Assembly: GCA_023249475.1 (NCBI GenBank)
Contig: JAHFCO010000020.1
Span: 1 to 40,643, forward strand
Length of the DNA: 40,643 bases
Source of the DNA: Bacillota bacterium
GTDB lineage: Bacteria; Bacillota_I; Bacilli_A; Erysipelotrichales; Erysipelotrichaceae
Direction of reading: 5' to 3'
Each line of letters starts with the position of its first letter. Positions within the stretch are counted from its first letter, which is position 1. The notes under the pieces were generated by a model. That model was given only the letters and a program-made list of their open reading frames with translations. It was not told where the DNA came from and did not search any database. Positions 34,528 through 40,242 of the stretch are shown here, in pieces. The position numbers and the translations under genes are program-made.

Positions 34528-35454
34528 ATGGAACACATCTCGGTACTGTTGCAGGAATCCATCGCCGGATTGGCGATCCGTCCTGATAAAACCTACGTCG
34601 ACGCGACCTTGGGGCGCGGCGGCCATAGCCTTGAAATCGTAAAACAACTTACATCCGGCCGGTTGATTTGTTTCGACCGCGATCTCAAAGCGATCGAAGA
34701 ATCGAAACAGGTCTTATCCGACCACCTCGATAAGATCACCTTCATCCATGGCAACTTCAGCGAGATGAAAGAAAAACTATTGGCAATCGGCATCCATGGC
34801 GTCGACGGGATCATGGCCGACCTGGGGGTTTCCTCCCCGCAGTTCGACGATCCAGAGCGCGGCTTCAGCTATCGTTTCGACGCACGGCTGGATATGCGGA
34901 TGGACCAATCCCAACCGTTATCCGCATGGGAAGTCGTCAACACCTATCCGTTCAACGACTTGTTTCGGATCCTGCACCGTTATGGCGAAGAACCCTTCGC
35001 CAAGCAGATCGCCCGGAAGATCGAAGCCCGTCGTAGTGAAAAAACGATCGACACGACCTTGGAACTGGTCGATGTGATCAAATCCGCCCTGCCTGCCAAA
35101 GTTTTATCGAAGAAGGGGCATCCCGCCAAGCAGACGTTCCAGGCGATCCGCATCGAAGTCAACGGCGAACTGGACGCTTTGGAGGAAATCCTCCGGCAGG
35201 GGATCCAACTCCTCAATCCCGAAGGCCGGTTTTGCATCCTGACCTTCCATTCGCTGGAAGACAAGATCGTCAAGGAGAGGTTCGGCGAAGTCTCCACCCT
35301 CCATGTGCCGCACAAACTGCCGGTACAGAACCTTCCGTTGGCGAAATACGAATTCATCACACGCAAGGCGATCGTCGCATCCGACGATGAACTTGACCAA
35401 AACAAACGTTCGCATTCCGCGAAACTGAGAATACTACGGAAAAGAGGGGATTGA
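34528..35454 (+). CDS. rsmH: 16S rRNA (cytosine-N4)-methyltransferase RsmH
   Basis: RsmH (MraW) methylates N4 of C1402 in 16S rRNA. The 308-residue protein has HISVLLQESIAGL at the start, the SAM-binding YVDATLGRGGHS, GIMADLGVSSPQFDDPERGF, the long KTFQAIRIEVNGELDAL-like helix (here QTFQAIRIEVNGELDAL) and FHSLEDKIVKERF. It starts immediately after the mraZ stop, which implies coupling, and ends 1 bp before ftsL. Confidence 0.98.
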   Translation: MEHISVLLQESIAGLAIRPDKTYVDATLGRGGHSLEIVKQLTSGRLICFDRDLKAIEESKQVLSDHLDKITFIHGNFSEMKEKLLAIGIHGVDGIMADLGVSSPQFDDPERGFSYRFDARLDMRMDQSQPLSAWEVVNTYPFNDLFRILHRYGEEPFAKQIARKIEARRSEKTIDTTLELVDVIKSALPAKVLSKKGHPAKQTFQAIRIEVNGELDALEEILRQGIQLLNPEGRFCILTFHSLEDKIVKERFGEVSTLHVPHKLPVQNLPLAKYEFITRKAIVASDDELDQNKRSHSAKLRILRKRGD

Positions 35455-35761: not shown

Positions 35762-37924
35762 ATGAAAAGAAGAAGCAATCGCATGCTTCTTTTTGTCATG
35801 GTTCTGTTTATGGTGGTGTCATCCATCACGGCGGCCAACGTCTATGTCGTGGCGATCGGCGGCATCCACCTGAGAAGCAACACGGACATCATCGACTATA
35901 GCGAGAACGTGCATATCCAAAACGAAATCCTATTGGCAAGAAGAGGGGACATCCTCGACCGCAACGGGATCATCATCGCCGAGGACGTGGATGCCTACCA
36001 TGTCTATGCCGTCTTGGATGGACGCTTCGATGAAAAATACGTCACGGACATCGAAGGGACGTCCGTCGCGTTGGCGGACTATCTCAACGCCCCGGTCGAA
36101 TACATCCGCTCGCGCCTCAGCGTTTCAGGGGCGTATCAGACCTATTTCGGCATCTACGGACGCAACCTCTCCAAGAGCCAGAAAACCGAGCTGGAAGCCC
36201 TGGGATTGGACGGCATCAAATTCCAAAAGACGGTCGCGCGCAACTATCCGTTCGGGACGTTCGCATCGCATTTGGTCGGGTTCGCCCAAGCCGAGGATGA
36301 AAACGGCAACGGGAATGTCCTGATCCATGGCAAAATGGGACTGGAACTCGGACTGGAAAACCGCTTGGTCGGCGTGAACGGCAAGAAACAGTCGACGGTC
36401 GACCGCTACGGGTATGTCCTGCCGGGATCGAAAGTCGTACAGGTGGACCCGGTCGACGGGTACGATGTGACGTTGACCCTCGACAAAGGGATCCAGGAAG
36501 CCTTGGAAGCCGCGATGTTCGATACAAGGGACGCGTTTGAAACAAACAAGATCTGGGGTTCGGTCATGGAGGTCGACAGCGGGAAAATCCTCGCGTGGAG
36601 CCAGTGGCCGGGATTCGACCCCAATGTCCTGGACATCGAAGACTACATGAACATCGGCTCGCAATACGCCTATGAACCGGGGTCGACGATGAAAACCTTC
36701 GTCTATGCCTCGGCGATCGATACGGGCGTCTATAAGGGGAACACGATTTTCGACAGTTCGCCTTTCCGCATGGGGATCAAGAACGGACAGCCGGTCCGTG
36801 TCAACAAGAACCAAAACGCGATCGCCATCATCAACAACGCCAACAACAAGAACTGGGGTCTGATTTCCCTGGATTACGGCTACATCTATTCCTCCAACGT
36901 CGGCATCGCGGAACTACTGACGAAAGTCGTCGATACGGAGGTCTACCGCGATTATCTCGATGATTTCGGGTTTTTCAAGCCCGTGGATACGGATTCCATC
37001 CCCGAAGTGACCGGATCGATCAACTATCAATGGCCGGTCGAAAAACTGACCGCGGGCTATGGCCAAGGGGTTACGGTCACCATGTTGCAGATGCTTCAAG
37101 CCTATTCCGCCGTTTTCAGCGACGGGACCATGGTCAAACCCTATGTCGTCGCATCGATCAACGATCCCGAAACCAAAGAACCGGTCTATACGGCCGAAAC
37201 GACCGTCGTCGGGCATCCGATCCAGGAAGACACCGCCCGTCAGCTTCAACAATTGATGTATCAAGTCGTCTATGACCAAAAAGGCACGGGGCGATTCTAT
37301 CAGATCCCGGAAGTCAATTCCATCGCGAAGACGGGGACGGCGCAGATCGCCGTCAACGGTTCCTACGAAGCGGACTACAACCTCTTCTCGGTCGCGCTGG
37401 CGATCCCCGCGGAAAACCCGAAGATCATGATCTACTATGCGTTCGAAGCGGAATATGCACGCAACGTCCATAGCACCACGTCGCCGCTTCAACAGTTGAT
37501 GCGGAAAATCACGCTGGCGTATGGGTTCACCAAACCGACGACCGATCCGGACGACGACGACAAACCCAAGGTGTTCATGACAAGCGTCCCATTCTTGACC
37601 AACCATAGCCTCGGTTACGCCGATGCGAAATGTACGCTCGCCGCGCTGTCTTGCCTGACGATCGGCAACGGGAAAAGCGTCGTCGCCCAATACCCGCTCC
37701 CCGATACGCAAGTGCTCAGCGACCAGCGCGTCCTTTTACTGACGTCGCAAGAGAACATCCTGATGCCGGAGATGACGGGGTGGAGCCGCCGCGACGTCCT
37801 CGCGTTCTTCGCGCTGACCCATGTCCCCGTGACCATCAACGGGGAAGGCAACGTTTCATCGCAGTCGGTTGCCGCCAACACCGCGATCGATGCGTCCGTC
37901 ATGGTCGAAATCACTTTAAAATGA
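35762..37924 (+). CDS. Penicillin-binding protein 2B/SpoVD-type transpeptidase with PASTA domains
   Basis: A 720-residue class B PBP that cross-links septal peptidoglycan. An N-terminal membrane anchor (MLLFVMVLFMVVSSITAA) is followed by the dimerisation domain starting at ARRGDILDRNGIIIAED and the transpeptidase domain with SxxK = STMK (Ser308), SxN = SSN (377-379) and KTG at 523-525 (SIAKTGTAQIAV). The last ~120 residues form two PASTA repeats, as in PbpB/SpoVD. The gene directly follows ftsL and is the last gene before the mraY promoter; murE, which follows it in Bacillus, is absent. Confidence 0.95.
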   Translation: MKRRSNRMLLFVMVLFMVVSSITAANVYVVAIGGIHLRSNTDIIDYSENVHIQNEILLARRGDILDRNGIIIAEDVDAYHVYAVLDGRFDEKYVTDIEGTSVALADYLNAPVEYIRSRLSVSGAYQTYFGIYGRNLSKSQKTELEALGLDGIKFQKTVARNYPFGTFASHLVGFAQAEDENGNGNVLIHGKMGLELGLENRLVGVNGKKQSTVDRYGYVLPGSKVVQVDPVDGYDVTLTLDKGIQEALEAAMFDTRDAFETNKIWGSVMEVDSGKILAWSQWPGFDPNVLDIEDYMNIGSQYAYEPGSTMKTFVYASAIDTGVYKGNTIFDSSPFRMGIKNGQPVRVNKNQNAIAIINNANNKNWGLISLDYGYIYSSNVGIAELLTKVVDTEVYRDYLDDFGFFKPVDTDSIPEVTGSINYQWPVEKLTAGYGQGVTVTMLQMLQAYSAVFSDGTMVKPYVVASINDPETKEPVYTAETTVVGHPIQEDTARQLQQLMYQVVYDQKGTGRFYQIPEVNSIAKTGTAQIAVNGSYEADYNLFSVALAIPAENPKIMIYYAFEAEYARNVHSTTSPLQQLMRKITLAYGFTKPTTDPDDDDKPKVFMTSVPFLTNHSLGYADAKCTLAALSCLTIGNGKSVVAQYPLPDTQVLSDQRVLLLTSQENILMPEMTGWSRRDVLAFFALTHVPVTINGEGNVSSQSVAANTAIDASVMVEITLK

Positions 37925-37978: not shown

Positions 37979-38938
37979 ATGAAACCGATCTTGGCGCTCA
38001 TCTTGGGTTTTCTGTCGGTCGTGACCGCGATGCCCTTCTTCATCGACTATCTCAACCGAAAAAACACCAGCCAGTCCGTGAGCGAATACTCACTGAAGGA
38101 ATTTAAAGAAAAGAAGAAGACTCCGACCATGGGAGGGGTTCTTTTCGTTCTTTTCCCGGTCGTCACGATGACGATCCTTTATCCCCAATCGTGGTTTGAA
38201 ATCAAAAGCGCCCTGGTCTATCTGGCGTATCTCGCCTATGGCGGGATCGGCCTGTGGGACGACCTGAAAATCGTCATCGAGAAGAAGAACGACGGAATCA
38301 GCGCACGTACGAAATTCACCGCCCAGGTGATCCTGGCGGTCGTGTTCTATCTGCTGTATCGTCAATCCGCTTCTTCAATCATCGTCGTCCCGTTCACCGG
38401 ATGGGAATGGAACCTTGGATGGCTTTATGCCGTCCTGGTCTTCTTCATGTTCGCGGGCGCCAGCAACGGCGTGAATCTGACCGACGGGATGGACGGTCTG
38501 GCCGGAGGGACGTCTTTGCTTGCGTTTATCCCTTTCGCGACCATCGCCTATCTGCGCGGCGAAGAAGTGCTTTTCGCGTTCATCCTGGCCTGCATCGGCG
38601 CGTTGATCGCCTATCTGCGATACAACTGGCATCCCGCCAAGATCTTCATGGGCGACACCGGCGCGTTGGCGTTGGGCGGCGTATTGGCGGCCCTGGCCTT
38701 CGTCATGAAACTCGAATTCGCCCTGTTGGTGATCGGCGGCGTGTTCGTCTTCGAAACGGTCTGCGTCATCCTCCAGATCGGCTCCGTCAAATTGCGGAAG
38801 AAACGGATCTTCATCTACACACCCATCCATTACGCCTTCACGATGAGCGGGTGGAAGGAAAAGAACACCGTGCTGTTCTTCTGGTTCCTCGGGGCGCTTT
38901 GCGCCTTCCTTGGCATCTTGATCGGGGTGTCCGCATGA
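37979..38938 (+). CDS. mraY: Phospho-MurNAc-pentapeptide transferase MraY (divergent)
   Basis: MraY attaches phospho-MurNAc-pentapeptide to undecaprenyl phosphate, forming lipid I. The 319-residue, roughly ten-span membrane protein shows TPTMGGVLF, the Asp pair in GLWDDLKI, NGVNLTDGMDGLAGG, HPAKIFMGDTGALALGG and FVFETVCVILQ. Two canonical features deviate: the GPxxHxxKxGTPTMGG stretch reads LKEFKEKKKTPTMGG without the His, and the active-site PxHHHFE motif reads PIHYAF (His284, Tyr285, Ala286). The rest argues for a real MraY rather than WecA/TagO. GGGAGG precedes the ATG, and the stop overlaps the murD start (ATGA). Confidence 0.9.
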   Translation: MKPILALILGFLSVVTAMPFFIDYLNRKNTSQSVSEYSLKEFKEKKKTPTMGGVLFVLFPVVTMTILYPQSWFEIKSALVYLAYLAYGGIGLWDDLKIVIEKKNDGISARTKFTAQVILAVVFYLLYRQSASSIIVVPFTGWEWNLGWLYAVLVFFMFAGASNGVNLTDGMDGLAGGTSLLAFIPFATIAYLRGEEVLFAFILACIGALIAYLRYNWHPAKIFMGDTGALALGGVLAALAFVMKLEFALLVIGGVFVFETVCVILQIGSVKLRKKRIFIYTPIHYAFTMSGWKEKNTVLFFWFLGALCAFLGILIGVSA

Positions 38939-40242
38939 GTAAGGTACTGGTCATCGGAGCAGCGCGCAGCGGCTTGGCCGCGACGCGCCTATTACTCAAG
39001 CATGGCGTGGAAGTCGTCTTGACCGATATGAAACCGATTTTGGAAAAAGAAGAGCTGATCGCCGACGGCGTGCAGGTCTTCGACAACGGCCATCCGTTGG
39101 AAATCCTTTCGCAGAAGTATCTCTACGCCGTCAAGAATCCCGGCATCCCCTATACAAACGAGTTCGTGAAAACCGTACAGCGCGAAGGGATTCAAATCAT
39201 CAACGAAATCGAACTGGCGCTGCGGTTCGCGAAAGAATACACGGTCGGGGCGATCACCGGGACCAACGGGAAGACCACCACGACCAGCCTGCTGTGGGAG
39301 ATGCTGAAACGGAAGGATGAAAAGGCGATCGCGGCCGGCAACATCGGCCTTCCGCTCTGCGAATCCCTCATCGAAGCGGGGGATGTCAAACGCGATGTCG
39401 CACTCGAAATCGCCGCCTTTCAACTTCTCGGGTGTCCGACCTTCCATCCCTTGGTCAGCGTAATCATGAATCTCACCCCCGATCATTTGGACGTCTTCGG
39501 CGCGATCGACGCCTACTATCGCGCGAAAACGCTCGTCTATCAAAACCAACGCGGGGAAGACTGGTTCCTGCGCAACATCGACGACGCCAATGTCGTCGCC
39601 TATACGCAGGACGTGAAATGCAAAGTCGTCGAGTTCTCACTGACCCAAGCGAGCGACCTGAGGATCGAAAACAAGACGGTTTTCCTGTTCGACACGCCTC
39701 TGTTTGAACTCAAGGATCTCCACATCGTCGGGAAACACAATGTTCAAAACGCGATGGTCGCGGCGGCGATGGCGTACAAGATGGGTGTCCGACCGGAGGA
39801 CATCCAACAGGCGATCCGTGAATTCAAGGGCGTCGAACACCGCATCGAATACGTACGCGAACGTGACGGCGTCCGCTTTTACAACGATTCGAAGGGGACC
39901 AACTGCGATGCGACCATCGTCGCGCTTAACGCGTTTGACCAACCTGTGATCCTGCTCGCGGGGGGCTATGATAAAAAAACCGGTTTTAAAGATATGGTCC
40001 CTTACCTGGACCATGTGAAATCGATGATCGTGTTTGGTTCGACGAAGCATCAGTTAAAAGAAATCTATCCGGAAGCGATCGTCGTGGAGAATTTGAAGGA
40101 AGCGGTGGAAGTGGCGAAAACGTTGGCGAAAGACGGGGATATCGTCCTGTTTTCACCGGCGTGCGCGAGCTACGACCAGTTTGACAACTACGAACAACGG
40201 GGTCGGTTTTTCAAAGATTTCGTCAACGGGAACGAATCGTAA
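38935..40242 (+). CDS. murD: UDP-N-acetylmuramoylalanine--D-glutamate ligase
   Basis: MurD adds D-glutamate to UDP-MurNAc-L-alanine using ATP. The 435-residue cytosolic protein has the N-terminal Rossmann domain (KVLVIGAARSGLAATRLLL), the ATP loop GTNGKT at 109-114, MNLTPDHLDVFG, FKGVEHRIEYV and FYNDSKGTNCDAT, and C-terminal LLAGGYDKK and FSPACASYDQFDNYEQRG, all diagnostic. The ATG at 38935 overlaps the mraY stop; the frame stays open far upstream inside mraY but that part is an arginine-rich shadow. The gene ends the dcw block here; ftsW, murG and ftsZ do not follow. Confidence 0.97.
   Translation: MSKVLVIGAARSGLAATRLLLKHGVEVVLTDMKPILEKEELIADGVQVFDNGHPLEILSQKYLYAVKNPGIPYTNEFVKTVQREGIQIINEIELALRFAKEYTVGAITGTNGKTTTTSLLWEMLKRKDEKAIAAGNIGLPLCESLIEAGDVKRDVALEIAAFQLLGCPTFHPLVSVIMNLTPDHLDVFGAIDAYYRAKTLVYQNQRGEDWFLRNIDDANVVAYTQDVKCKVVEFSLTQASDLRIENKTVFLFDTPLFELKDLHIVGKHNVQNAMVAAAMAYKMGVRPEDIQQAIREFKGVEHRIEYVRERDGVRFYNDSKGTNCDATIVALNAFDQPVILLAGGYDKKTGFKDMVPYLDHVKSMIVFGSTKHQLKEIYPEAIVVENLKEAVEVAKTLAKDGDIVLFSPACASYDQFDNYEQRGRFFKDFVNGNES

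Follow-up and report, generated by a model that had tools for sequence, protein, structure and literature searches.

An MraY variant of the Erysipelotrichaceae with altered loops A and E and a single conserved loop-E histidine

MraY proteins carry the motif PxHHHxE in loop E, which the review PMC5039524 treats as a hallmark and which is not part of the NCBI definition of MraY; its three histidines are described as highly conserved. The same review assigns the sequence specific to MraY to loops I and V, and the residues shared by the whole superfamily to the other loops, and it lists D98, D99, K116, N171, D174, D231, H289 and H290 of the Bacillus subtilis enzyme as residues reported to be catalytically important. 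H290 corresponds to H325 of the Aquifex enzyme, a residue called invariant in PMC8954382. H325 is contacted, directly or via water, by four of five classes of nucleoside inhibitor, capuramycin being the exception (PMC6606608), and it is used as a target contact in inhibitor design (PMC6606608, PMC9495235).

The window is a stretch of 40,643 nucleotides from a member of the Erysipelotrichaceae (contig JAHFCO010000020.1). A division and cell wall cluster begins within its last 6.6 kb, and the contig ends at 40643. The gene order is mraZ-like, rsmH, ftsL-like, class B penicillin-binding protein with PASTA, mraY, murD and a small Post_transc_reg gene; the mraZ-like gene was named by eye, and the ftsL-like gene by its place, with no Pfam match. 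The start of murD overlaps the mraY stop codon as ATGA, in agreement with the coupling of the two genes claimed in a first-pass annotation made from the sequence. In the record of a congener (L061) the cluster continues with secDF-, recJ- and apt-like frames, judged on their first residues. The features of the locus are itemized in Table 1.

Table 1. Features of the mraY locus, with positions in the window
Feature	Position	Strand	Basis
rsmH, start of the division/wall cluster shared with mraY	34528..35454	+	TIGR00006, 373.4 bits
Class B penicillin-binding protein with PASTA, directly upstream of mraY	35762..37924	+	Pfam Transpeptidase, PBP_dimer, PASTA
mraY (variant MraY), 319 aa	37979..38938	+	TIGR00445, PF00953, AlphaFold2 model, sole PF00953 in the genome
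Loop A, Ser35-Lys45, SEYSLKEFKEK	38081..38113	+	PDB alignment and column comparison
Asp94-Asp95, catalytic Asp pair (Aquifex D117, D118), kept	38258..38263	+	Alignment
DGMDG; Met171 for canonical Leu/Val	38483..38497	+	17 variants vs 40 canonical
Asp226, Mg-binding Asp (Aquifex D265), kept	38654..38656	+	Alignment; Mg role from PMC6606608
Loop E, Tyr280-Thr288, YTPIHYAFT for M(A/S)PxHHHFE	38816..38842	+	Alignment
murD	38935..40242	+	Named from sequence and place, translation; without a family scan

Loop E of the window MraY is KRIFIYTPIHYAFTMSG. The hallmark is absent and PIHYAFT stands in its place, and the degenerate HHH loop that had been noticed from the sequence is real: only the first histidine, His284, is retained, with Tyr285 and Ala286 replacing the other two and Thr288 replacing the glutamate. 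On alignment with the PDB 4j72 chain of Aquifex MraY (with a numbering offset of 6 worked out in this analysis) His284, Tyr285 and Ala286 fall at H324, H325 and H326, and Thr288 at the glutamate two residues on. Loop A is SEYSLKEFKEKKKTPTMGG, where Phe42 occupies the position of the histidine in SHxxK (Aquifex position 67 by our own count). The loss of this histidine had also been claimed. Lys45, equivalent to Aquifex K70, remains in place. The Asp pair D94 and D95, the Mg-binding D226 and the first loop-E histidine H284 are all present. The first-pass annotation described the Asp pair, MGDTG and NLTDGMDGLAGG as intact; this holds for the first two, while the third carries Met171, found in 17 of 17 variants, where Leu or Val is found in 40 of 40 canonical relatives. 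From the B. subtilis list of catalytic residues only H290 is replaced in the window MraY, and the altered chemistry that had been suggested is not supported. The motif residues are identical in a congener (G001), and among 84 dereplicated variants, with a mean pairwise identity of 0.48, codon 285 is TAT in 58, TAC in 25 and TTT in one, which reads as synonymous drift around a held residue. Given both observations, a sequencing error is an unlikely source of the motif change.

The window protein is a true MraY by family model, fold and sole occurrence, and we file it as a variant; the gene is not decayed. It scores 259.6 bits with the TIGR00445 equivalog model (cut-off 192.05), 124.7 bits with PF00953 and 23.3 bits with MraY_sig1 (PF10555, covering the TPTMGG region; cut-off 20.1), and 54.4 bits with the WecA model (cut-off 326.05). 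An AlphaFold2 model, from a run with 36 window and locus sequences as input, has a mean pLDDT of 90.8 and a pTM of 0.90, with pLDDT below 50 for loop-A residues 35–38. Comparison of the model by Foldseek and VIA-align ranked MraY chains first (best Z 42.1, rmsd 1.4, 300 residues, 36% identity; best structural match 6oyh_B) and DPAGT1 next (best Z 31.9, 18% identity). A single PF00953 match, the variant mraY, occurs in the genome (2.09 Mb, 96% complete). A second, canonical mraY was sought in it by PF00953 family search and by codon pattern; none was found, nor was any CAYCAYCAYTWYGAR run. Loop-E histidines unlike those of MraY might indicate that a transferase of the WecA or TagO kind has been recruited into the wall cluster, a suggestion also made in the first-pass annotation. 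This is already contradicted, and we consider it extremely improbable: the protein passes TIGR00445 and falls far below the WecA cut-off, the homologues of the family that we take to be TagO-like have H[LI]HH where it has HYAF, and the genome contains no other PF00953 protein to act as MraY. With no alternative enzyme found, we infer that the variant must carry out the lipid I step.

The same form of loop E is widespread in the family (f1), where the variant codon pattern occurs in 181 of 272 genomes and 28 of 59 genera, Erysipelothrix and Holdemania included, and the canonical pattern in 79 of 272 genomes and 34 of 59 genera. When 395 genomes were drawn evenly from the class, as a test of the HY/HF pattern only and not of other departures from HHH, the pattern was present in 22 of 36 family genomes and in 8 of 359 others; the nine pattern places in those eight genomes were rejected as variant genes, since none is mraY. 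MraY was found in 58 of 60 relatives, comprising 17 variant, one intermediate (His-Tyr-His) and 16 canonical proteins in f1, and 24 canonical proteins in f2. Two f1 genomes stand apart. G007, a single contig of 3.9 Mb at 99% completeness, contains rpoB, MurE and MurT and only a TagO-like homologue, with no MraY above cut-off; here a stretch may have been masked or misassembled, or the gene may truly be lacking. G017, labelled 98% complete, has no match for MraY, MurE, MurT or rpoB, and is no evidence of mraY loss.

A scan of named genomes with the variant alignment gave 80 loci, all variant or intermediate; its patterns contain the motif, so these loci are biased, and the unbiased figures are those of the 58-genome set. 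The loci belong to Erysipelothrix (tonsillarum, inopinata, aquatica, urinaevulpis, HDW6A and metagenome-assembled genomes), Holdemania and Lactimicrobium, together with many Solobacterium-labelled or unnamed metagenome-assembled genomes. All 13 genomes of genus g62 (Erysipelothrix) have the variant pattern, and two of them place mraY where the E. inopinata and HDW6A chromosomes have it. In four variant MraYs (L104, L114, L117 and L130) the loop-E motif is followed directly by a short insertion. In the loci inspected by eye murD lies 3′ of mraY for variant and canonical genes, the gene downstream of the intermediate (L254) is not murD, and no extra gene peculiar to the variant loci was seen in the neighbourhoods read. 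It had been asked whether many verified MraY enzymes carry the same substitution; it is indeed common to many MraYs, while we found none of these to be biochemically characterised.

The variant is also the sole copy elsewhere. On each of the complete chromosomes of Erysipelothrix sp. HDW6A and E. inopinata, the variant mraY is the single match to PF00953. E. rhusiopathiae is described with a complete set of murein genes and one mraY in its table (PMC9637936). Bulleidia extructa is reported to have a wall, and a TagD domain was all that could be found for its tag products (PMC12786226). Both codon patterns occur together in six f1 genomes. In four of these the coincidence is due to chance, and in two (G031, contig C100, L143; G153, contig C13, L144) there is a real piece of mraY at the site of the canonical pattern, on contigs of 3.7 and 6.1 kb. 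The G031 piece follows murE-like frames. Its mean identity to the canonical members of the family is 43%, while these are 56% identical to each other, and from this distance it is probably contamination.

The variant label is defined by columns 285 and 286. Between 17 variant and 40 canonical MraYs there are 11 columns that separate the two perfectly (30, 35, 37, 38, 171, 270, 280, 281, 285, 286 and 288), located mostly in or near loops A and E, plus Met171. By contrast all 58 MraYs have the same residue at each of 37 columns, including K45, D94, D95, N166, D169, D172, D226, Q266 and H284. In a larger set of 84 variants and 40 canonical proteins (126 of 139 rows, after removal of those at least 97% alike) nine columns separate perfectly and column 270 nearly so. 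Because the changed columns lie mostly in and around loops A/I and E/V, where the review places MraY-specific sequence, it is the MraY-specific part that has been rewritten. Two further candidates were rejected. A loop-A Pro to Leu change is not a mark of the variant, as Leu is also present in 28 of 39 canonical rows, and the loss of an R35–E288 salt bridge as a pair is not supported, as the intermediate keeps the Glu with Ser at position 35.

In a tree of MraY with the motif columns masked (a careful tree of 40 rows, without the second copy in G031) the variants form one clade with support of 95/88, and the variants plus the intermediate are grouped at 98/94, the intermediate being sister to the variant clade. 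It has Tyr285, Met171 and the SEY loop A, and keeps His286 and Glu288; this mixture of residues suggests an order of steps. A quick rpoB tree of 40 rows (without the fragmentary G033 and without G017; six of the 24 f2 genomes were used in the trees) splits the variants into two groups that are neighbours, next to which four canonical genomes fall, and a single variant clade is not rejected (p-AU 0.196). The lineage-specific MraY proposed in the first-pass annotation is supported by clade-wide conservation, single origin on the MraY tree and sole copy.

These changes could reflect relaxed constraint, with the second and third histidines dispensable and having drifted away. Variant MraYs diverge somewhat more for a given rpoB divergence, with a mean ratio of 1.75 compared with 1.55 for canonical family members (calculated without G001, G014, G020 and G033), and among the 84 variants Ala, Ser and Thr all occur at position 286, while position 288 is free to vary. 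Drift would not be expected to hold Tyr/Phe280, Thr281, Tyr/Phe285, Met171 and Tyr/Phe37 in 84 of 84 variants as observed, and we regard this explanation as improbable.

Our preferred reading, to which we give a probability of roughly 0.86, is that the variant is a functional and sole MraY with the usual chemistry, in which the donor-side loops A and E were rewritten once within the Erysipelotrichaceae. With Mg- and Asp-dependent chemistry of the usual kind, the enzyme would transfer phospho-MurNAc-pentapeptide onto undecaprenyl phosphate, and it would rely for this on the superfamily Asp pair, the Mg-binding Asp, the Asn/Asp core, Lys70 (Aquifex numbering) and the first loop-E histidine. In an ancestor within the family the MraY-specific cytoplasmic loops A/I and E/V and the Leu of DGLDG would have been rewritten jointly. 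Genus g11 would preserve an early step, in which the second histidine became Tyr, loop A changed and DGLDG became DGMDG; a later step would have removed the third histidine and the following Glu. The changed loops would alter the hold on the MurNAc-peptide side of the donor, or on inhibitors bound there, rather than the catalytic step. Some observations count against an ordinary MraY. The variant lacks the histidine equivalent to B. subtilis H290 (Aquifex H325), which PMC5039524 counts among the catalytically important residues; the B. subtilis K116 position is Arg in 9 of 84 variants, the window MraY not among them; and the variants are not one clade in the best rpoB tree. The canonical mraY pieces in 2 of 181 variant genomes count against a sole copy.

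The stem peptide offers another possible cause of the change. B1-delta murein has L-Ala at position 3; MurT is not expected beside a bridge on the alpha-carboxyl of D-Glu, and the motif DNPR in MurE denotes diaminopimelate. The loops might have been rewritten for a donor stem with no diamino acid at position 3, as in B1-delta murein, with loops A and E reading the peptide, which we consider possible but doubtful. Both variant genera for which a typed wall was found, Erysipelothrix and Holdemania, are B1-delta, with E. rhusiopathiae itself so listed (PMC4062643, Table 2). For E. rhusiopathiae a genome paper (PMC9637936, section 20 and Table 5) gives Ala at position 3 and identifies MurE as an alanine ligase; citing a review, it writes D-Ala at that position yet names MurE an L-alanine ligase. 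In addition, the urea-dipeptide part of muraymycin and mureidomycin binds in a TM9b/loop E pocket with H325 (PMC6606608). Against this, between 28 variant and 23 canonical genomes (without G001 and copies of 350 bits or less) only 1 of 487 MurE columns has a JS value of at least 0.9, compared with 12 in MraY, two of which define the label, and the MurE of the Holdemania group keeps DDPR, as in the canonical genera. Uncorrected for relatedness, MurT is present in 7 of 17 variants, the window genome included, in the one intermediate, in 13 of 16 canonical f1 genomes and in none of 24 in f2. It is thus missing from 10 of 17 variants, and the three canonical f1 genomes that lack it are all at most 85% complete. 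As a marker of wall type MurT is suggestive and not clean. The MurE motif, DNPR in the 10 f2 copies read and DDPR-like in most f1 genomes, variant and canonical alike, gives no clean split between variant and canonical and was rejected as a marker of the position-3 residue. A link between variant MraY and B1-delta walls is possible, and is not established by the MurE and MurT comparisons. A rather unlikely extension is a specificity switch, in which loops A and E act as a stem reader for B1-delta stems and also lower sensitivity to nucleoside antibiotics that grip H325. As a separate observation, the MurE of genus g62 (Erysipelothrix; L332-L340) has HDNR in place of DDPR/DNPR in 9 of 10 copies, which may be linked to an unusual residue at position 3.

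As four of the five nucleoside classes contact H325, an altered inhibitor response, which the first-pass annotation had raised, is plausible; tyrosine at this position is predicted to weaken the binding of nucleoside inhibitors. The classes that contact H325 should work less well on the variant, with capuramycin unaffected. No susceptibility data were found. Inhibitor escape might itself have driven the change, under selection by H325-contacting antibiotics of the muraymycin, mureidomycin, caprazamycin and tunicamycin classes. Those contacts (PMC6606608) are in its favour, as is position 50 (Aquifex T75, in the uridine-adjacent pocket), where 45 of 84 variants have Ile and 38 of 40 canonical rows have Thr. 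The window MraY keeps Thr50. Loop A, Met171 and residue 270 also take part in the change, whose fixation across many genera is more in keeping with a structural change of long standing than with repeated selection by drugs, and we find escape an unlikely cause.

Around two-thirds of the sampled genomes of the family, Erysipelothrix included, have an MraY that lacks the ‘invariant’ H325. The variant looks like a working MraY and a natural test of what the loop-E histidines do: as in a natural experiment, the clade sets the first apart from the other two, and in it loops A and E change as a unit. No prior report of this substitution was found in a search of titles and the starts of abstracts on the MraY HHH motif and on MraY in Erysipelotrichaceae or Erysipelothrix, with most subscription journals outside it, which is weak evidence that the substitution is new to the literature.

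The window protein shares with described MraYs (TIGR00445; the Aquifex, Hydrogenivirga and E. coli structures and the tunicamycin complex 5jnq) its family score, fold and place before murD. Like canonical MraY it has the Asp pair, the Mg-binding Asp, the N/D core, Lys70, Gln305 and the first loop-E histidine, and differs in the second and third loop-E histidines, the following Glu, the loop-A histidine and the Leu of DGLDG, all of which are replaced. With the variant MraYs of Erysipelothrix, Holdemania, Lactimicrobium and Solobacterium-labelled genomes it has loop A, Met171 and an HY[SAT]F or HFAF loop E in common, while identity outside the genus is 39–58% and about half of the variants have Ser or Thr at position 286 in place of its Ala286. 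The WecA/TagO-type transferases and DPAGT1 share the PF00953 superfamily core and overall fold. The TagO-like homologues differ in their H[LI]HH loop (ten homologues) where the window MraY has HYAF, WecA in that the window MraY reaches 54.4 of 326 bits on its model, and DPAGT1 in matching the window model with Z of 32 as against 42 for MraY.
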